This document shows, piece by piece, positions 516-16,347 of a stretch of DNA of 24,928 nucleotides (position 1 is its first letter; each line of letters begins with the position of its first letter). The translations under genes and the position numbers were made by a program. This DNA comes from a virus, in IMG/VR virus record IMGVR_UViG_3300032092_001756, positions 1 through 24,928 of that record. One strand, given 5' to 3'. The notes beneath the pieces are model-generated. The model saw only the letters and a list, made by a program, of their open reading frames with translations, did not search any database and had not been told where the DNA came from.

Positions 516-3500
516 ATGCTACGAGATGTATTTTACTTTGGCAATAAGCCAAATAGTCACCCAAGAGAACAATATGCAAATGACTTAGCACACGCTAGGT
601 CATTGTCCACTACAGAACACTTTTGGGTAATCACAGAGCATTGTGACTACAAGAACTTTGATTGGGACTGGGACTTTGATTTCTTGCCTGACGAAGATGT
701 TTGGACTAAAGACTTTAACAATGTATGGCCTAGCGAGTTTGACAAAGATAGTGGCACTTGGCTATGCACAGAGCTAGATGTTGATACCTTTATCTATCGT
801 ACAGATGTACAGCCAATCAAATTAAAAAATCAATCTTGGAAATTTCATTCTCCCGTTGATTTGTCTAGTATTGATCTTTCATGGACACCTGAACCAACCG
901 AACCACCATACATATATACGTGGGGCAACAAATATATACCAGCAGAAATAGAACCAACACTAGAGTATTATGTAGATGGAGCAGTTGATAGAAAGTACAT
1001 GGGTAATGTACGGGTGTTCCCTCAACTCAGCAGATGGACAGAACATGTTAAAGTAGATGAAAACAATTTTGATATGTGCTGGAGACCTGATCCACGTGAG
1101 CCAGCATTCATATATGTATGGGGAAACAAATATGAACCCGCAGAAATTAAGCCCACGCTAGAATATGTTGTACCAGGCGCCATCAATAAAAAATATATGG
1201 GTGTTGTATTAGTTGAACCAGAACTTGATAGATGGGTCGAGCACATTAAAGTATCGGTTGAGTTTGATAAATCATGGAGGCCAGATCCTAGAGAGCCCGC
1301 ATTCATATATGTGTGGGGTAATAAGTATGATCCGGCAGAAGTCAAACCTACATTAGAATATATAGTACCCGGTGCTATTGATAAGAAGTACATGGGTATT
1401 GTAGAACTAGAACCTGAATGGGATCGATGGAAAGAACATATATTAGTAGATAGAACTACATTTGACTTTAGTTGGAGACCAGACCCTAACTTACATGAAC
1501 CACCTTATATCTATGTATGGGGTAACAAATTTCACCCTGCTGAACAAAAATCAACATTAGAATATATTGTGCCGGGTGCTACTGAAAAGAAGTACATGGG
1601 TATTGTAGACTTAGCACCTGAATGGGATCGATGGAATATGTTAATTCCCATTGACATGGATAGCTTTGACTTTAGATGGAGACCTGATCCTAATCTACAT
1701 GAGCCACCACTGATATATGTATTTGGAAACAAGTGGCATGATAGCAAGACTGAACCCACAATAGAATATGTTGCTCCCGGCGCTGTTGTTAAGAAGTACA
1801 TGGATCACCCTGTTGCTATACCTAAAAGTGATATGTCATTGTGGACTGTCAATAACAAAGAAGACTTAGATACATTTGATTTTAGTTGGAGACCTAACCC
1901 ACACAGCCCATTACAACTATATCAATGGGTTGATAACGGTCCTAGATACAATCAACCAAATGCTACTGAAGTTGTATTGATGGAGTATGTAGATGACAAT
2001 AGAAAAGTGTTTGTTAATCGTTATCAAATTAAAACTACACTAGAAGAATTAATAGAAGAACATATTGACGAAGTGTTTTGGGCATTGAATCCTGACTTGG
2101 CATATGACAGATTTGATTTTAATTGGAGACCTACAAACGAAAACTTCCGTCATATTAACGTATTTGGTAATGAGTATAGCAAGAACACACAAACATACTA
2201 CATCAATGGACCTATGTATAAACTAGGTCACCGTGAATATAATTATATTGAACAAGATTTTGATATTGAATCTAATTTAAGTATGTTCTATATCGACAGA
2301 GGTCGTGGAGCTGATAGATATGAAGCATTGAAACTACGTTATCCTCAACTACAAAAAACTAGATATCTTAACAGTTGGGTAGAGACTATTCAACGTTGCT
2401 GTAATAAGAGTGAAACGAAACTCTTTTGGGTATTGAACAGTGAACTAGATTACAGTGAGTTTATGTTTGACTTCTATCCTAGCCCATGGCAGATGGATAT
2501 GGTTCATGTATTCGGAACACAATGGAGTCATTGGGGTAATACTTATCTAGTGAATAAAGAAACGTTTGAAGAATCAACAAAATATATCAAGGTCATTGAG
2601 CATTTGAATATTCTAAACTTTGTTAAGAACAAACGTGCTAAAGCAGTTGAGACATTGTATGATATTGTTTATATTGACCACGGCAACATAGAACATACAA
2701 CAGGTACAGTGGTCAAGTATGAAGAAAGTTATTTGAAGACATTCAAAAACATGTTAGCAATACTACCAACCAAGAAAGAACATTATGTTTGGGTATGTAG
2801 TACAATTTGTGATTATGATAATTTTGATTTTACATATATTTGTGATCCTTATGCCAAAGATCAATTACATGTATTTCCTAGCGACAAGCAAAAGTTTGGT
2901 GATACGTTTTTAGTTGACGTAAACAAATTAAGAACATTGATTGATAGTATGGATGTGTTAGAAGACTATGTAAAAATAAACTACAATCAACATCAATCTA
3001 CTAAACGATTACCTGCACCCGTTTTTATAAATGAAAGTGATACACATGTCTCTATTAACAATTTTGATTTTAATTGGCCTTATGCTACGATACTCTCGGC
3101 AGACAACAAAGAAATAAAAGTAATTGACAATGAACCTATGAGTTTATGGTCAACTGAAACAAAGAATATTGTTGTTCATAGTGCAGGTGGAACGTGTGTT
3201 ACTATACCACGTGAAGCCAAAGACTATGTAAAAAAAGAGTTATACGATTATCCATATATCAAACATGTAGCTAAGCCTGTACATAGTAATCCTTTAGATA
3301 TTGTATTCTTTAGTAACGGTGAAGCTGGTGCTGATGAAAACTATGAGCATTTATTATTTGCTACAGCTGGATTATCTAATAGAGTTATTAGAGTTGACGG
3401 CATTAATGGTCGTGTTGCAAGTCAACATGCGGCTGCAAATGCAAGTAACACATCGTGGTACTTCTTAGTCAATGCTAAACTTAAAGTTAATAAAAAGTTT

Positions 3501-3971
3501 GATTGGGATTGGCAACCGGACAGATTACAGATACCAAAACATTATATCTTTACTGCAACCAATCCAGTCAATCATTTAGAGTATGGTCATCAAGCTATTG
3601 TTGCTAACAATAAGAAGTTGACATTGAATACTGTGGTAAAAGGATTAGACTTTACTATGGACAGTGAACACGAAGTTGTACAAATTAATAGTGGAATAGG
3701 TATGTACAATACCAGTATATGGGATACGTGGCGAACAGCCTTCCGTGAAGTATTGAAGTTAAAATATTATACTGAACACAATGATGATTTAGAAGCTAAA
3801 TTTAGATTAAGTTCATGGCTAAATTTAGGTGACGGGAAGTTTGGTGAATACAGTACTATAGCGGCATTGGATGCATGCCGCTATTATGAGACGGTTAACG
3901 GAGATTTGAACAAATTAAGGTTAAGTTATGACTGGGATTGGTTAAAAACGTACTTTGAGGATAAAATGTAA
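516..3971 (+). CDS. Very large modular repeat protein (1151 aa), possibly glycosyltransferase-like
   Basis: No function is recognised with certainty. From about residue 119 the protein holds a run of 65-70 residue modules (starts near 119, 185, 250, 319, 384, then more divergent at 454 and 533). Each has the pattern FDFxWRPDP, then IYVWGNK, PAE, TLEY, VPGA, KKYMG, and DRWxEH. The rest repeats a looser unit: 'FWVLN...LDY..FDF.W.P...HVFG' recurs near residues 35, 515, 640 and 770. A segment near 925 (LDIVFFSNGEAGADENYE) and a matching IVYIDHG segment near 715 open longer modules that resemble nucleotide-sugar-transferase folds, with acidic FDWDW patches in place of DxD. That fold guess is inference. 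It follows the carbamoyltransferase by 8 bases. It has no signal peptide or membrane segment. The start lacks a clear Shine-Dalgarno site. Confidence 0.8.
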   Translation: MLRDVFYFGNKPNSHPREQYANDLAHARSLSTTEHFWVITEHCDYKNFDWDWDFDFLPDEDVWTKDFNNVWPSEFDKDSGTWLCTELDVDTFIYRTDVQPIKLKNQSWKFHSPVDLSSIDLSWTPEPTEPPYIYTWGNKYIPAEIEPTLEYYVDGAVDRKYMGNVRVFPQLSRWTEHVKVDENNFDMCWRPDPREPAFIYVWGNKYEPAEIKPTLEYVVPGAINKKYMGVVLVEPELDRWVEHIKVSVEFDKSWRPDPREPAFIYVWGNKYDPAEVKPTLEYIVPGAIDKKYMGIVELEPEWDRWKEHILVDRTTFDFSWRPDPNLHEPPYIYVWGNKFHPAEQKSTLEYIVPGATEKKYMGIVDLAPEWDRWNMLIPIDMDSFDFRWRPDPNLHEPPLIYVFGNKWHDSKTEPTIEYVAPGAVVKKYMDHPVAIPKSDMSLWTVNNKEDLDTFDFSWRPNPHSPLQLYQWVDNGPRYNQPNATEVVLMEYVDDNRKVFVNRYQIKTTLEELIEEHIDEVFWALNPDLAYDRFDFNWRPTNENFRHINVFGNEYSKNTQTYYINGPMYKLGHREYNYIEQDFDIESNLSMFYIDRGRGADRYEALKLRYPQLQKTRYLNSWVETIQRCCNKSETKLFWVLNSELDYSEFMFDFYPSPWQMDMVHVFGTQWSHWGNTYLVNKETFEESTKYIKVIEHLNILNFVKNKRAKAVETLYDIVYIDHGNIEHTTGTVVKYEESYLKTFKNMLAILPTKKEHYVWVCSTICDYDNFDFTYICDPYAKDQLHVFPSDKQKFGDTFLVDVNKLRTLIDSMDVLEDYVKINYNQHQSTKRLPAPVFINESDTHVSINNFDFNWPYATILSADNKEIKVIDNEPMSLWSTETKNIVVHSAGGTCVTIPREAKDYVKKELYDYPYIKHVAKPVHSNPLDIVFFSNGEAGADENYEHLLFATAGLSNRVIRVDGINGRVASQHAAANASNTSWYFLVNAKLKVNKKFDWDWQPDRLQIPKHYIFTATNPVNHLEYGHQAIVANNKKLTLNTVVKGLDFTMDSEHEVVQINSGIGMYNTSIWDTWRTAFREVLKLKYYTEHNDDLEAKFRLSSWLNLGDGKFGEYSTIAALDACRYYETVNGDLNKLRLSYDWDWLKTYFEDKM
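870..2111 (+). repeat. Tandem diverged repeats inside the 1151-aa gene
   Basis: At least five consecutive units of about 195-210 bases encode FDFxWRPDP...KKYMG modules, with two weaker ones after them. Some stretches are nearly identical at the DNA level. For example, AAGAAGTACATGGGTATTGT occurs at 1383 and again at 1587, exactly 204 bases (68 codons) apart, and CTGAATGGGATCGATGGA follows in both. All units stay in frame. The high DNA identity of units three and four suggests fairly recent duplication or gene conversion. Confidence 0.85.
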
Positions 3972-4016: not shown

Positions 4017-4835
4017 ATGAAAAAACTACTAATATCCCTATTTGTACTTGTTACTTCATTAGCATCTGCACAGATGCCGACTTCAACAGTACCACTACCC
4101 GCAGATATTGCCGCAATTAAGAAAGCAAACGTTCTTATTGTGGCAATGACCAAAAAAGATGTCCCGCCTTTCTTCTCCGGAGAAGGTGATAATATTCGAG
4201 GTCTTGACGTTGAGATTGCCAAACGAATTGGTGTATTACTTGGCGTCCCTGTACAGTTCAGACGAGATGCAGAAAGTTTTGCTGAAGTTGTTGAACAAGT
4301 GCGTGACGGCAGAGCAGACATTGCAGTTAGTAAACTATCAGTAACTGGTCCACGTTTACAAGTTGTTAAGTTCAGCGCACCCTATGTTAAATTAAGACAG
4401 AGTTTAGTTATTAATCGTTTATGGTTAAGTCAGAACAGTCAAGGTAAAGAAGTATATCAAGTTATCCGTGACTTCAATGGTAAGATAAGTTTTATCCGTA
4501 ACTCAAGTTATGATACATTCGCCCGTATTAACTTCCCCAATGCAACATTCCTTCCGGAAGACAAATGGGATGTGATTATCGACAAAGTTACACGTGGTGA
4601 CATTGCTGCCGCATATCGTGACGAATTTGAAATCAAGAAAATTGCTTTTGAAAAGCCTGATGCAGCCATTACTACAAAGAGTATTACAATCTCTGACAGT
4701 GTAGATAACATTGCAGTGGCAGTGAATCCAAAATCAATTCAACTATTGAGTATGGTTGATTATGTGATTAAAAATGAATTCAGCAACATTGACACTAAAA
4801 AGTTAATGGACAGATACAAATCAGAAAAGAAATAA
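4017..4835 (+). CDS. Secreted amino-acid-type solute-binding protein (SBP_bac_3 family)
   Basis: The 272-residue protein starts with a signal peptide (MKKLLISLFVLVTSLASA, cleavage near residue 18-19). A family 3 periplasmic binding protein follows: 'NVLIVAMTKKDVPPF', 'GLDVEIAKRIGVLLG', 'DGRADIAVSKLSVTGPR', then 'VKFSAPYV'. Such proteins capture polar amino acids in the periplasm, usually for ABC transporters. No ABC permease or ATPase is nearby. Instead a cation:dicarboxylate symporter gene starts 9 bases downstream. As I recall, fusions of this receptor type to that symporter class occur in bacteria, so the pair may be a split version of one system; this is inference. The length is normal for the family and the gene looks intact. 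Confidence 0.85.
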   Translation: MKKLLISLFVLVTSLASAQMPTSTVPLPADIAAIKKANVLIVAMTKKDVPPFFSGEGDNIRGLDVEIAKRIGVLLGVPVQFRRDAESFAEVVEQVRDGRADIAVSKLSVTGPRLQVVKFSAPYVKLRQSLVINRLWLSQNSQGKEVYQVIRDFNGKISFIRNSSYDTFARINFPNATFLPEDKWDVIIDKVTRGDIAAAYRDEFEIKKIAFEKPDAAITTKSITISDSVDNIAVAVNPKSIQLLSMVDYVIKNEFSNIDTKKLMDRYKSEKK

Positions 4836-4844
4836 GGACACATC

Positions 4845-6122
4845 ATGACAACAGCACATTTAAAAAGTTTCCTGATTAGTCCTTGGACTATCTTAGGATC
4901 AATTATAGTAGGTATCCTAAGCGGAGTATATATTCCTGAGTTTAGTATTAGCCTTGACAGTATTGGTAGTATCTATATTAGTTTGTTAAAGGTAGTTGTA
5001 TTACCATTCTTATTAGCAACTATCCTAGTTGGTATCATTGGCTTGCTACAAAAAGAAGGCAGTCAAACATTAATTCGTAAAATCATCATTGGCTTTGTCA
5101 GCAGTATGTTTATTGCCGCGGTCATAGGAGTAGGTACTGTAATGGTCACCGGTACAGAAATGACACCTGAGAAGAAAACACAGCTTGGTGTACTAGTCAA
5201 CGACAAAGACAGCGGCACTGATTTAAACATCACGCTTAAAGAACCAATGCCGCAGGCAGCAGAAGTTAGTGCTGGTAAGATGGCAGAGAAGTTTATTCCA
5301 GAAAATATCTTTAACACACTAAACAATGGTGAGAGTTTGAAGATTGTGATCTTTTGTTTGATCTTTGGTGTTGCCCTTGGACACTTGAAGACAGAAGGTC
5401 AACGCATGTTGGTTGAAGTACTAAAGAGTATTCAACAAGCAAGTATTAGCATCTTTAAGTTCTTAAACTATTTCTTGCCCATTGCACTATTAGCAATGAT
5501 TTCATCACAAGTTGGTAAAGTAGGCGTGGGAATCTTTATGACCATGTTTGACTTTGTGTTCCAACAGTTTATTGGCGGGATGCTAGTTATTGCGCTAGGT
5601 ACAGTTGTAATCTGGATGCGCAGTGGATTGAGTCTAATGACTGTTATCCGTGAAACTAAAGAGACATTGATTGTTGCTGTTAGTTCACGTAGTTCATTGG
5701 CTTGTATCCCATATGCACAAGAAGCACTACACAGACTACACTTTGACAAAGGCGGAGTTGAACTAACTGTTCCACTAAGTTTCACTGTTAACCGTATCGG
5801 TAGTATCGTTTACTATGCTATTGCTACTGTATTCATTGCCAACATCTATGATGCTCCATTAGGTCTAACGGGACTAGCAGTTGTATTGTTTGGTAGTATC
5901 TTAGCAGGTTTAGCAAGTGCAGGTACAACGGGCATCCTTACAGTTGCTACGGTAGCAGTTGTTTGTGACTTGTTAAAACTTCCAAGTGAAGCGGTATTAG
6001 TATTACTAATTGCAGTTGATCCATTAATGGATATGATTCGTACTGCAAGTCACGTACACGGTAACGTGGCAGTTACAGCGTTTGTCTGCGATAAAGAGGT
6101 AGTACCGGATGGACAAACTTAA
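4845..6122 (+). CDS. Cation:dicarboxylate/amino-acid symporter (DAACS/SDF family)
   Basis: This is a 425-residue polytopic membrane protein. The N-terminus (ISPWTILGSIIVGILSGVYIP...LLKVVVLPFLLATILVGI) is the usual start of glutamate/dicarboxylate symporters. The serine-rich hairpin appears as VSSRSSLACIPYAQEAL (about residues 283-299). The substrate-binding end is present as 'GLASAGTTGILTVA' and 'VDPLMDMIRTASHVHGN', which aligns with the D..D(M).RT..NV.GD motif of the family. The hairpin is of the RSSLA..P type rather than the SSSxTLP type of GltP, suggesting a divergent subgroup. AAGGA lies upstream of the start. The next gene overlaps its 3' end by 14 bases. The protein would sit in the inner membrane and import acidic amino acids or dicarboxylates with Na+ or H+. 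Confidence 0.88.
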   Translation: MTTAHLKSFLISPWTILGSIIVGILSGVYIPEFSISLDSIGSIYISLLKVVVLPFLLATILVGIIGLLQKEGSQTLIRKIIIGFVSSMFIAAVIGVGTVMVTGTEMTPEKKTQLGVLVNDKDSGTDLNITLKEPMPQAAEVSAGKMAEKFIPENIFNTLNNGESLKIVIFCLIFGVALGHLKTEGQRMLVEVLKSIQQASISIFKFLNYFLPIALLAMISSQVGKVGVGIFMTMFDFVFQQFIGGMLVIALGTVVIWMRSGLSLMTVIRETKETLIVAVSSRSSLACIPYAQEALHRLHFDKGGVELTVPLSFTVNRIGSIVYYAIATVFIANIYDAPLGLTGLAVVLFGSILAGLASAGTTGILTVATVAVVCDLLKLPSEAVLVLLIAVDPLMDMIRTASHVHGNVAVTAFVCDKEVVPDGQT

Positions 6123-8856: not shown

Positions 8857-8919
8857 ATGAGACTCCCTGCTTTTATATCCGTTGGCATTTTGATAATCGT
8901 CCTATTGATTGTGTTATGA
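8857..8919 (+). CDS. Tiny hydrophobic peptide (20 aa), possibly translation-coupling ORF
   Basis: An ATG follows directly after the stop of the 711-aa gene (TAAATG) and opens a 20-codon frame, MRLPAFISVGILIIVLLIVL. Nearly all of it could span a membrane. Its TGA overlaps the racemase ATG as ATGA. Neither this ORF nor the racemase has a Shine-Dalgarno site, so ribosome hand-over through this ORF would explain racemase translation. It may be a real small membrane peptide or only a coupling device. Its length makes chance possible. Confidence 0.35.
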   Translation: MRLPAFISVGILIIVLLIVL

Positions 8920-9608
8920 AACGTCTAGGTATACTTGGTGGCATGGGCCCGGCAGCTACTGCTGAATTTTACAGAAGACTAGTTGAGCAGACACCTGCAT
9001 CATACGATCAGGCCCATATACCCGTGATTATTTGGGCCGACCCTACAGTGCCCGATCGTAGTACCAGCTTGATGAATAGAAATGATCTTCCGTGGGAAAA
9101 ACTTAAAGCAGGTATATTAGGTCTTAAAAATGCAGGGTGCGACCGCATAGTAATACCATGTAACACAGCACATTTTTGGTACGATAGGATGAGTAAATTG
9201 GGAGTACCAATCATACATATTGTAGGTAGTGTAGCAGAAGAATTAAGGTTTTTGAAAATATACAGTGGTGCTATCGGGATCATAGGTACAAAAGCTACTA
9301 TGAGTTTGGGATTATATCAAAGTTATTTGAATGATCTCGGTTGGTCATGTATAACTCCTAGTACATATGAAATGGACACCTATGTGCAACCAGCAATTGA
9401 ATTAATAAAGTCAAATGATATTGAAGCCGCACATGACCTTTTAATGATTGCAATAGACAAGTTAATGTCGTACGGTGTAAAAGCTATAGTATTGGGTTGT
9501 ACAGAGATACCCCTAGCAATCAAAGAAACTCAATATAAAAATATTCCATTAATCAACAGCATTGATAGTTTGGTTAAGTTAGCCATAAAAGAGTTTGACA
9601 GACCGTAA
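8916..9608 (+). CDS. Aspartate/glutamate racemase family protein (PLP-independent)
   Basis: The 230-residue protein begins MKRLGILGGMGPAATAEFY, the standard start of aspartate racemases. The two catalytic cysteines are in place: C82 in IPCNTAH and C195 in LGCTEIP. The family interconverts L- and D-aspartate or glutamate by two-base proton transfer in the cytoplasm. Length and motifs indicate an active enzyme. Its start overlaps the preceding 20-codon ORF by 4 bases. The tmRNA promoter begins inside its last codons. In a phage, D-amino acids could affect peptidoglycan precursors or D-Asp metabolism. The nearby acidic-amino-acid-type receptor and symporter make a shared substrate plausible (inference). 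Confidence 0.92.
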   Translation: MKRLGILGGMGPAATAEFYRRLVEQTPASYDQAHIPVIIWADPTVPDRSTSLMNRNDLPWEKLKAGILGLKNAGCDRIVIPCNTAHFWYDRMSKLGVPIIHIVGSVAEELRFLKIYSGAIGIIGTKATMSLGLYQSYLNDLGWSCITPSTYEMDTYVQPAIELIKSNDIEAAHDLLMIAIDKLMSYGVKAIVLGCTEIPLAIKETQYKNIPLINSIDSLVKLAIKEFDRP

Positions 9609-9623
9609 GAATAAATATATAAT
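9595..9623 (+). promoter_or_regulatory. Perfect-consensus sigma70 promoter of the tmRNA gene
   Basis: TTGACA (9595-9600) and TATAAT (9618-9623) are separated by exactly 17 bases. Transcription should start near 9630, just ahead of the tmRNA acceptor piece. The -35 box lies inside the end of the racemase gene. Host RNA polymerase should read it without phage factors. Confidence 0.9.
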
Positions 9624-9694
9624 GTAAGTTATTGCTGTATGAAGCAAAGAGAAAAGTGTTCTGGACGGGGGTGCGAATCCCCCCAGGTCCACCA
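9624..9694 (+). ncRNA. ssrA: Permuted tmRNA, acceptor piece (3' domain, encoded first)
   Basis: This is the tRNA-like 3' part of a two-piece tmRNA. The T arm is GGGGG (9667-9671), loop TGCGAAT (9672-9678), CCCCC (9679-9683). The acceptor strand CAGGTCC (9684-9690) and an encoded ACCA end (9691-9694) follow. CAGGTCC pairs over 7 bp with GGGCCTG at 9810-9816, the start of the coding piece, with a G3-U70 wobble, the alanine identity element. GGAC directly before the T stem matches bacterial tmRNAs. Upstream, GCTGT (9634-9638) and TGTT (9657-9660) can pair with ACAGC (9852-9856) and AACA (9835-9838), consistent with helix P2. T-loop position 55 is G instead of U. The mature 5' end is not known; it lies after the promoter. 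Confidence 0.9.
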
Positions 9695-9708
9695 TAATAG
9701 GATTTAAC

Positions 9709-9822
9709 ATGGATGAAACGTATTCACTTTGGAAGTTTGTTAATGTAGATTGTGTCAACTACATTTGTATTAACAATTATTCCAAAAGACATGCTAGACG
9801 TATTATGATGGGCCTGACCTAG
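9709..9822 (+). CDS. Small ORF (37 aa) inside the tmRNA intervening segment
   Basis: ATG at 9709 has AGGA (9699-9702) six bases upstream and opens 37 codons (MDETYSLWKFVNV..., ending RRIMMGLT). Its TAG at 9820-9822 falls within the first bases of the tmRNA coding piece. The protein is unrecognised, with a basic end (SKRHARR). It sits between the two tmRNA pieces, where permuted genes normally have only a discarded spacer. It may be chance: the frame is short and it shares sequence with a stem-loop. Confidence 0.3.
   Translation: MDETYSLWKFVNVDCVNYICINNYSKRHARRIMMGLT
9737..9776 (+). other. Stem-loop in the tmRNA intervening segment
   Basis: TTGTTAATGTAG (9737-9748) pairs with CTAC (9759-9762) and, across a 6-base bulge, with ATTAACAA (9769-9776), closing a 10-base loop. 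An alternative register pairs AATGTAG directly with CTACATT. It lies centrally in the 115-base spacer (9695-9809) that must be removed to make the two mature pieces, so it could guide RNase processing. That role is inferred. Confidence 0.5.
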
Positions 9823-9991
9823 ATTCGACAGGGCAACAAGTAAATTAGTGGACAGCTCGGCAAAGCAGAAGCCGTAGGATTGGGGTCTCCCGATTGTAGA
9901 AGCAAAAAAAGTAAACGCAAACGACTCACAGTTCGCATTAGCTGCCTAAACTCAGCTTAGGGTAAGACATACCTCGTAACAGAAACTCACT
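9810..9991 (+). ncRNA. ssrA: Permuted tmRNA, coding piece with tag ANDSQFALAA
   Basis: The piece starts with GGGCCTGA and a D-loop-like AGATTCGACAGGG, matching the 5' end of standard tmRNA. The tag frame begins at a GCA resume codon (9917-9919) preceded by the typical AAAAAGTAAAC and reads ANDSQFALAA, stop TAA (9947-9949). The LAA end is the ClpXP degradation signal. Pseudoknot-like pairing lies before the tag: CGGC/GCCG (9858-9861 with 9871-9874) and ATTGGG/CCCGAT (9879-9884 with 9889-9894). A hairpin AGCTG/CAGCT (9940-9944 with 9953-9957) covers the stop codon as helix P5 does. The product frees stalled ribosomes and marks the truncated peptide, needing host SmpB and AlaRS. No T arm or CCA follows; these lie upstream at 9667-9694. 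The exact 3' end is uncertain. Confidence 0.92.
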
Positions 9992-10014
9992 AAAGGCTCT
10001 TCGGAGCCTTTTTT
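9992..10014 (+). terminator. Rho-independent terminator of the tmRNA gene
   Basis: AAAGGCTC (9992-9999), a TTCG tetraloop, and GAGCCTTT (10004-10011) form an 8-bp hairpin that runs into a T tract ending at 10014. Together with the promoter at 9595 it bounds an independent tmRNA transcription unit of about 385 bases. Confidence 0.93.
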
Positions 10015-10052
10015 AACGGATATATTGTCATATATTTGTCATCATATTCTAA

Positions 10053-15249: not shown

Positions 15250-16347
15250 ATGGCATCGCAAGTCTCTGACAATCATACAATCACCAGTGTACAGACACGT
15301 AAATCTATTCTTAAAGCGTTTAAAATTAAACGTCCCGTTTTTCTATGGGGACCTCCCGGTATCGGCAAATCAGAAGTGGTTGCTGAAATTGCAGAAGAAC
15401 TCAAGGGCGCAGTTATTGACTTGCGCATGGCACAAATGGAACCCACTGACATTCGTGGTATTCCCTACTTCAACAAAGACAACGGTAAAATGGACTGGGC
15501 TCCCCCGATCGATTTGCCTGATGAAGAATTTGCAAGCAAATACCCAGTTGTTGTATTGTTCTTAGATGAAATGAATTCTGCACCTCCTGCAGTACAGGCA
15601 GCAGGTTATCAACTAATTCTTAATCGCCGAGTTGGCAAATACTTCTTGCCGGACAATGTTGTAATTGTTGCGGCAGGTAATCGTGATAGTGACAAAGGTG
15701 TTACCTATCGTATGCCAATGCCCCTTGCTAATCGTTTTATTCACTTAGAAATGCGCCCTGACTTTACATCATGGCAACAATGGGCTGTGAACAAGGGCAT
15801 TCACAAAGACGTTGTAGGTTACTTGTCGTTTGCTAAACAAGATATCTATGACTTTGATTCTAAATCTAGTTCACGTGCGTTTGCAACACCTCGTTCATGG
15901 TGTTTCGTTTCTGACTTGTTGAGTGATGAAGACACTGACACTGATACACAATTCAACTTGATTGCAGGTGCAGTAGGTGAAGGTCTTGCTGTTAAGTTTA
16001 TGGCTCACCGTAAGATTGCAGGTCGTATGCCTGAGCCAAGCGAAATTTTGTCAGGCAAAGTTAAAGATTTGTCAGTGAAAGAAATTTCAGCAATGTATGC
16101 TTTGACAATTGGTATGTGCTACGAATTGAAAGATGCAGTTCAAAAGAAAACTAGTAGCAAAGACTTTCACGTTATGGCTCAGAATTTCTTTGACTATATG
16201 ATGAATAACTTTGAAACTGAATTGGTTGTTATGGGTGCAAAGATTGCATTGAAGACTTATGAGTTACCAATCGAACCAACTCAGTTGAAGAATTTTGATG
16301 AATTCCACAAGAAATACGGCAAGTACATTGTGGAAGCTGGTAACTAA
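15250..16347 (+). CDS. MoxR-like AAA+ ATPase
   Basis: The 365-residue protein has Walker A GPPGIGKS (34-41), Walker B VVLFLDE (101-107), and a sensor-1 style AAGNR followed by RMPMPLANRFIHLEM, with the arginine finger expected in this area. These are the marks of MoxR-type ATPases, which act as chaperones and work with a VWA-domain partner. That partner (16614-17894) is next but one. The gene has two sigma70-type promoters, a strong ribosome site and its own terminator, so it can be made early and separately from the partner. The cytoplasmic target, perhaps a metal-dependent or multi-subunit enzyme of host or phage, is unknown. Confidence 0.92.
   Translation: MASQVSDNHTITSVQTRKSILKAFKIKRPVFLWGPPGIGKSEVVAEIAEELKGAVIDLRMAQMEPTDIRGIPYFNKDNGKMDWAPPIDLPDEEFASKYPVVVLFLDEMNSAPPAVQAAGYQLILNRRVGKYFLPDNVVIVAAGNRDSDKGVTYRMPMPLANRFIHLEMRPDFTSWQQWAVNKGIHKDVVGYLSFAKQDIYDFDSKSSSRAFATPRSWCFVSDLLSDEDTDTDTQFNLIAGAVGEGLAVKFMAHRKIAGRMPEPSEILSGKVKDLSVKEISAMYALTIGMCYELKDAVQKKTSSKDFHVMAQNFFDYMMNNFETELVVMGAKIALKTYELPIEPTQLKNFDEFHKKYGKYIVEAGN

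Follow-up and report, generated by a model that had tools for sequence, protein, structure and literature searches.

The DNA analysed here (24,928 nucleotides of the IMG/VR virus record IMGVR_UViG_3300032092_001756, referred to as the window) encodes a circularly permuted two-piece tmRNA, whose most unusual feature, overlooked by an initial annotation of the same DNA, is a 115-nt intervening sequence (IVS) that holds an open reading frame (ORF) and turns up again within diverged tmRNA genes. Very probably, the phages in question make their two-piece tmRNA from a σ70-dependent precursor and keep, between the two pieces, an exchangeable IVS cassette that either does or does not contain a small gene. 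Phage-borne two-piece tmRNAs are already known, and it is the IVS cassette with its small genes that appears to be the new part.

The identity of the RNA gene itself is supported by several lines of evidence. ARAGORN called a permuted tmRNA at 9602–10040 with the tag ANDSQFALAA*, and cmscan found full-length matches to two covariance models, i.e. RF04321 (tmRNA_permuted; 119.7 bits, E 3.3e-23, 9633–9949, model positions 1–213 of 213, cut-off 47) and RF01850 (beta_tmRNA; 104.2 bits, 9581–10015, model positions 1–331 of 331, cut-off 84). Both pieces are aligned by RF04321, with the 3′ piece encoded upstream of the 5′ piece. The reading as a permuted two-piece tmRNA in the initial annotation is thus borne out by ARAGORN and by scores above both cut-offs, and its coordinates proved correct wherever they were checked by direct reading. 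A chance origin of the tmRNA was ruled out by ARAGORN, by the RF04321 and RF01850 scores and by sister viral records, 39 of 40 of which also score above the RF04321 cut-off.

All features of the gene lie on the plus strand. Upstream is a σ70 promoter (9595–9623) that can be read directly and is conserved in relatives, with TTGACA at 9595–9600 and TATAAT at 9618–9623 separated by 17 bp. The predicted 3′ or acceptor piece (9633–9694) includes a helix strand and the T arm (9667–9683), as delimited by both model alignments, and ends with the directly readable 3′ acceptor strand CAGGTCC (9684–9690) and ACCA (9691–9694). It is followed by the IVS (9695–9809), which by homology is absent from the mature tmRNA and whose assignment is supported by its recurrence in diverged flanks and by its fold. 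The predicted 5′ piece, which RF04321 aligns through the tag stop codon (9810–9949) and which includes the mRNA-like domain, begins with the 5′ acceptor strand GGGCCTG (9810–9816, direct reading) and the D-like domain (9817–9829). The two acceptor strands, CAGGTCC and GGGCCTG, pair directly in 7/7 positions and include the alanine determinant G3–U70, just as had been claimed before. The same holds for the tag and the resume codon: ARAGORN and direct reading agree on a frame with the resume codon GCA at 9917–9919, the tag ANDSQFALAA at 9917–9946 and the stop codon TAA at 9947–9949. The beta model spans the pseudoknot and P5-like region, but several of the pairs it places around the 3′ hairpin are non-standard, and its match also includes the previously noted terminator, which was read as an intrinsic hairpin (AAAGGCTC-TTCG-GAGCCTTT) plus T run at about 9992–10012.

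This tmRNA belongs to a large viral family. An exact 28-base piece of its 5′ part is present in 40 IMG/VR contigs, and with two further patterns at least 178 permuted viral units were extracted, with the family being larger still. Extraction required at least six acceptor pairs, and every unit turned out to have seven; all 139 distinct viral units among the matches listed are paired in 7/7 positions. Among these 139 units, pair 4 (4–69) occurs as C–G, G–C or G–U and pair 5 (5–68) as C–G, G–C or A–U, i.e. the complementarity is maintained by compensatory changes, as the initial annotation had anticipated for related phages, and G3–U70 is invariant, with U70 being fixed in one search pattern. 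The specific acceptor GGGCCTG/CAGGTCC is found in 111 of the 178 viral units among the matches listed versus none of 103 cellular units (28 permuted and 75 standard), and also in 56 of 97 viral units from a scan without selection for that acceptor. The claim that the unit has its own TTGACA-17-TATAAT promoter gains from recurrence in these relatives: of 133 distinct regions upstream of viral units, 41 have TTGACA and TATAAT elements with no more than one mismatch (1 of 133 in single-letter shuffles), mostly at a similar distance from the T arm (−68/−45). In a phylogenetic tree, the viral units group in a separate radiation beside three betaproteobacterial cells with small genomes (support 72/93).

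The window most likely represents a piece of a T4-like jumbo phage from freshwater, with relatives of about 350 kb, because it shares a MoxR-type ATPase gene (15250–16347), the tmRNA and the spacing of the two with records that carry a T4-type Gp23 capsid gene. Among 16 other viral records with this ATPase, its identity is 72–88%, with 85% in the 352-kb record G040; a Gp23 gene is present in four records of 342–352 kb and one of 99 kb. The distance between tmRNA and ATPase is about 5.6 kb in the window, about 4.7 kb in G040 and about 4–13 kb in most ATPase-sharing viral records. In this indirect manner, the phage origin assumed by the initial annotation is supported. A mis-binned fragment of a bacterial chromosome might be suspected from the host-like transporter, racemase and solute-binding protein genes and from the missing Gp23 gene, which does not occur within the window. 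This origin is extremely improbable, however, as the ATPase recurs in the 16 viral records, of which the four of 342–352 kb have Gp23 plus the same kind of tmRNA, and as none of 399 genomes of the order Burkholderiales contains the phage 5′ motif, even when two mismatches are tolerated. Bacterial DNA was rejected on the basis of the genes and the gene order common to the Gp23-bearing jumbo contigs. The host-like genes near the tmRNA (solute-binding protein, dicarboxylate symporter and Asp/Glu racemase; 4017–6122 and 8916–9608) are an unusual phage cargo, and a 1151-aa protein with repeated WRPDP motifs (516–3971) has no match in Pfam or PHROGs.

As for potential hosts, 17 of the 399 Burkholderiales genomes contain a clear permuted tmRNA (>100 bits), and a degenerate ANDSQFALAA pattern, with serine represented by TCN only, was matched exactly nowhere in the GTDB collection. 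SmpB is absent from 41 viral records, most of which are fragments, and therefore host SmpB would be used. Permuted tmRNAs are also found in the Xanthomonas phages X1 and Rb1, the Stenotrophomonas phage QDWS359 and the Acinetobacter phage BUCT628. These gammaproteobacterial hosts themselves have a one-piece tmRNA. No tmRNA feature is annotated at the permuted loci of X1, Rb1, QDWS359, QDWS595, BUCT-ZZ01 and BUCT628 (L364, L365, L366, L415, L416 and L417), and an alphaproteobacterial query for further isolated phages gave short partial matches only.

It is in the IVS that these viral genes differ most visibly from cellular ones. With the betaproteobacterial RF01850 tmRNA, the window shares the order of the pieces, the T arm, the acceptor stem, G3–U70 and a tag of the type AND..ALAA. 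Yet, betaproteobacterial IVSs are about 2–40 nt long, whereas the distinct viral IVSs among the matches listed have a median length of 88 nt and range from 20 to 382 nt. In 47 measured alpha- and betaproteobacterial loci, the IVS has 5–75 nt, with one of 115 nt, and in other betaproteobacterial cells it has 2–33 nt. Nearly all viral IVS ends pair with each other and lengthen the acceptor helix: the mean contiguous run is 9.4 pairs versus 5.0 when ends were re-paired at random across units, with 5.67 being the highest mean in 2000 shuffles. In the 139 distinct units among the matches listed, positions of this terminal stem vary between A–U, U–A, G–C, C–G and G–U, and 119 of the 139 distinct IVSs have TGAT directly before G1. 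The IVS hairpin is probably old, with its loop enlarged in the phages, since the short cellular IVSs have the same form, i.e. a stem often followed by TGAT before G1; the TGAT-ended hairpin also occurs in some betaproteobacterial cells (L345, L330). The cores of coding IVSs are more stable than shuffled sequences (mean z −1.9), with a mean of −0.3 for non-coding ones. In a cyanobacterial-type permuted tmRNA, the IVS contains a complete tRNA-Asn gene (L120, 6920–6992).

In the window, the terminal stem is formed by UAAUA (9695–9699) and UAUUA (9801–9805), which can be read directly and is followed by the conserved TGAT (9806–9809) before G1; the segment 9684–9816 folds with −43.3 kcal/mol (z −5.2), including this stem. 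A Shine–Dalgarno sequence (AGGA, 9699–9702) precedes a putative 37-aa ORF (9709–9822; MDETYSLWKFVNVDCVNYICINNYSKRHARRIMMGLT), whose stop codon TAG (9820–9822) already lies within the 5′ piece. A DNA pattern search found the same 115-nt IVS in seven other contigs with seven different sample ids (97% identity in L042 and L407–L411, 96% in L182), and the tmRNA flanks are only 56–63% (L042) or 58–78% (L182) identical to those of the window.

Such mismatch between the histories of the IVS and its surroundings is common in this phage group. Among the matches listed, 43 pairs of units combine IVSs at least 85% identical with flanks of less than 75% identity, and in 154 pairs unrelated IVSs lie next to 5′ pieces that match by 90% or more, with both counts being inflated by near-copies and not representing numbers of independent events. 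Aligned cases of exchange are L071 with L089 and L192 with L207, and L005, L012 and L039 combine one identical tmRNA with three unrelated IVSs. Judged by these comparisons, the IVS is an exchangeable cassette in the present phage group. For single contigs, assembly chimaeras at the conserved acceptor/T-arm stretch could be conceived, but the recurrence of the main combinations in several samples argues against such an origin for these. In swapped pairs, the shared tract usually extends at least about 36 nt upstream (T arm, acceptor), while its downstream reach varies between 0 and several tens of nucleotides.

Alternatively, the IVS could be a selfish element with an insertion mechanism of its own, i.e. 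a stem-loop that targets the acceptor stem via terminal inverted repeats. It is indeed placed exactly between ACCA and G1, terminal stem and acceptor together do form inverted repeats, and L057 and L184 share just the acceptor strands and the IVS, with T arm and D domain being different. However, neither a recombinase nor a homing endonuclease or reverse transcriptase was seen in the cassettes scanned (with Pfam finding no mobility-enzyme domain in ten IVS ORFs), equally placed cassettes have no common sequence beyond their paired ends, and recombination could rely on the conserved flanks, which measure about 36 nt on the upstream side and at most about 33 nt on the downstream side. A selfish element therefore seems unlikely, and we favour exchange of the IVS as a cassette.

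What do these cassettes contain? Among the matches listed, 43 of 89 distinct IVSs of at least 75 nt have an ORF led by a Shine–Dalgarno sequence and covering more than 75% of the IVS, versus 2.8 expected from dinucleotide shuffles in which Shine–Dalgarno sequence and start codon were kept. By eye, about 26 unrelated ORF families were counted among these matches; many of their products are single-pass membrane peptides, and across unrelated ORFs the start codon is located 8–14 nt past ACCA. In most families dN/dS is about 0.04–0.3 with differences found mainly at third positions (2/1/20 differences at the three codon positions for L173/L206 and 13/11/35 for L058/L102), which indicates that purifying selection acts on most of the testable families; a few pairs have higher values (0.8 for L137/L159, 0.6 for L115/L065) and some related pairs are too alike for dN/dS to be read. 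Pfam domains were found in two IVS frames, i.e. the Oxidored-like domain PF09791 in the L032 type (E 1.3e-12) and PF03692, a CxxCxxCC metal-binding type, in L102 (E 1e-5), and the ORF of L034 is GNAT-looking by eye only, without Pfam support. The case for coding is strongest for the L102 and L159/L173 types. The PF09791 type (seven units: L016, L032, L063, L072, L107, L139 and L150) has no start codon inside the IVS, with its frame being open from an ATG within the tmRNA 3′ piece.

These data bear on the more conventional notion of an ordinary phage two-piece tmRNA with a long and functionless IVS, where the AT-rich DNA would leave reading frames open by chance. An ORF is missing from half of the long IVSs, the IVSs of isolated phages resemble non-coding hairpins, and the ORF of the window, with three known variants and a shuffle frequency of 0.056, would by itself be marginal. 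Yet, chance is a quite unlikely explanation for 43 ORFs versus 2.8 expected, for low dN/dS values and differences concentrated at third positions in most families, for known Pfam domains and for the narrow range of start codon positions. Small genes in many of the cassettes thus remain our preferred reading, with the ORF of the window likely to be coding only by analogy to the others. Upon inspection, the IVSs of all six isolated phages with a permuted tmRNA appear to be non-coding hairpins, which may mean that coding cassettes are confined to the present phage lineage; moreover, four IVS proteins searched against isolated phages gave no match.

From these features we infer how such a gene might operate. 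A single precursor transcribed from its own σ70 promoter would comprise 3′ piece, IVS and 5′ piece. Cleavage by tRNA-processing enzymes of the host, immediately past CCA and immediately ahead of G1, would release the IVS and leave the two pieces paired via the acceptor stem and neighbouring helices. Together with host SmpB, this tmRNA would rescue stalled ribosomes and add the degradation tag ANDSQFALAA, with the conserved LAA end being compatible with the targeting to ClpXP that the initial annotation had considered. The paired IVS ends would extend the acceptor helix around an interior that is non-coding in some cassettes and in others holds a small gene, whose Shine–Dalgarno sequence and start codon lie about 8–14 nt past CCA. 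Cassettes would move between diverged tmRNA genes, most likely via homologous recombination with the conserved T-arm/acceptor and acceptor/D-domain sequences as recombination sites. Their small genes would profit from the strong promoter and be read from either the precursor or the excised RNA.

A more far-reaching and tentative idea is that the IVS represents a dedicated expression slot, where tmRNA maturation frees a hairpin-capped mini-mRNA with a ribosome-binding site at its 5′ end, and that the products of several families are tagged by their own tmRNA. A point against our preferred reading, like the missing start codon of the PF09791 type, is that several ORF families extend across G1, where cleavage ahead of translation would deprive them of their stop codon. 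In the window as well as in four other families, the stop codon is located in the 5′ piece and a cut before G1 would thus leave an mRNA without a stop codon. Such a mini-mRNA would be a tmRNA substrate and its product would be tagged, which suggests a potential feedback loop with the excised message being targeted by the very tmRNA it was released from. Coupling of tmRNA maturation and mRNA release in phages thereby becomes testable. In more general terms, what is discarded from a circularly permuted RNA gene can be used as a modular site for other genes, where unrelated small genes may be kept at one exact place by their RNA-processing context. The cassettes also amount to a catalogue of small phage proteins whose location inside an RNA gene may hide them from ordinary gene callers.

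Previous work puts these findings into perspective. Two-piece tmRNAs have been reported for phage Melnitz, with 53 in phage genomes (PMC9004378), which takes away the novelty implied by the initial annotation; a database contains 79 phage tmRNA sequences (PMC11915505), and tmRNA is known in huge phages (PMC7162821). The tmRNAs of Melnitz and other aquatic phages (PMC9004378) are likewise described as phage-encoded and circularly permuted with a control region of their own. The Melnitz type, though, is reported to have alphaproteobacterial affinity and a link to a glutamine riboswitch, whereas the window scores best with the beta model, and neither IVS protein genes nor cassette exchange are mentioned in the passages on which this comparison is based. 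Permuted tmRNAs with a tRNA-Ala gene or a repeat in the IVS (PMC11915505) also have extra content, but are isolated single cases, in contrast to the present phages, where the slot recurs, is exchangeable and often holds a small protein gene. A search of the open literature, with subscription papers mostly outside its reach, yielded no report of IVS protein genes or cassette exchange.

Finally, the lineage offers natural experiments on tmRNA itself, namely tags of increased length and the apparent exchange of a tertiary contact that links two separate RNAs. Among the matches listed, the viral tags are mostly 10 aa long, occur in 65 distinct nucleotide forms with synonymous change and mostly end with ALAA. 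These tags also speak to the question of whether the phage RNA might be a decoy or inhibitor of host tmRNA/SmpB rather than a working tmRNA. Inhibition of tmRNA has been reported for a DS6A-type RNA that resembles tmRNA but has no tag (PMC11915505; PMC4131195), and the absence of SmpB from the 41 viral records would also fit. We regard a decoy as highly unlikely, however, because it would not need the conserved reading frame, resume codon and AA end, which are maintained with synonymous change across the 65 distinct 10-aa tag sequences. Besides these 10-aa tags, about twenty units have tags of 23–32 aa (e.g. ANADTFDFSAMSFTGNTVSGKSKVALAA), with ARAGORN frames in agreement where scanned; they include L003, L011, L016, L043, L052, L065, L071, L080, L099, L118, L124, L128, L129, L135 and L136 and appear in at least two places in the tree, and in three on the best tree. 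Often an extended tag consists of an extension before a normal tag, as in L128 (ANDNAFDFTAMSFTGNTV-ANDSKFALAA), and this extension often resembles an amphipathic strand ahead of the normal degradation tag.

The tertiary contact concerns the T loop and the D-like domain, which reside on different pieces. All 90 distinct units with a T-loop GCGAN have AGNNTCGAC, and all 58 with TCGAN have GNNTTCGAC, both counted with kinship being ignored. The respective letters are G/A in the window and most of its relatives versus U/G in betaproteobacterial tmRNA, and T loop and D-like domain seem to change together across the two pieces as if a G18–U55 contact had been replaced by A18–G55.
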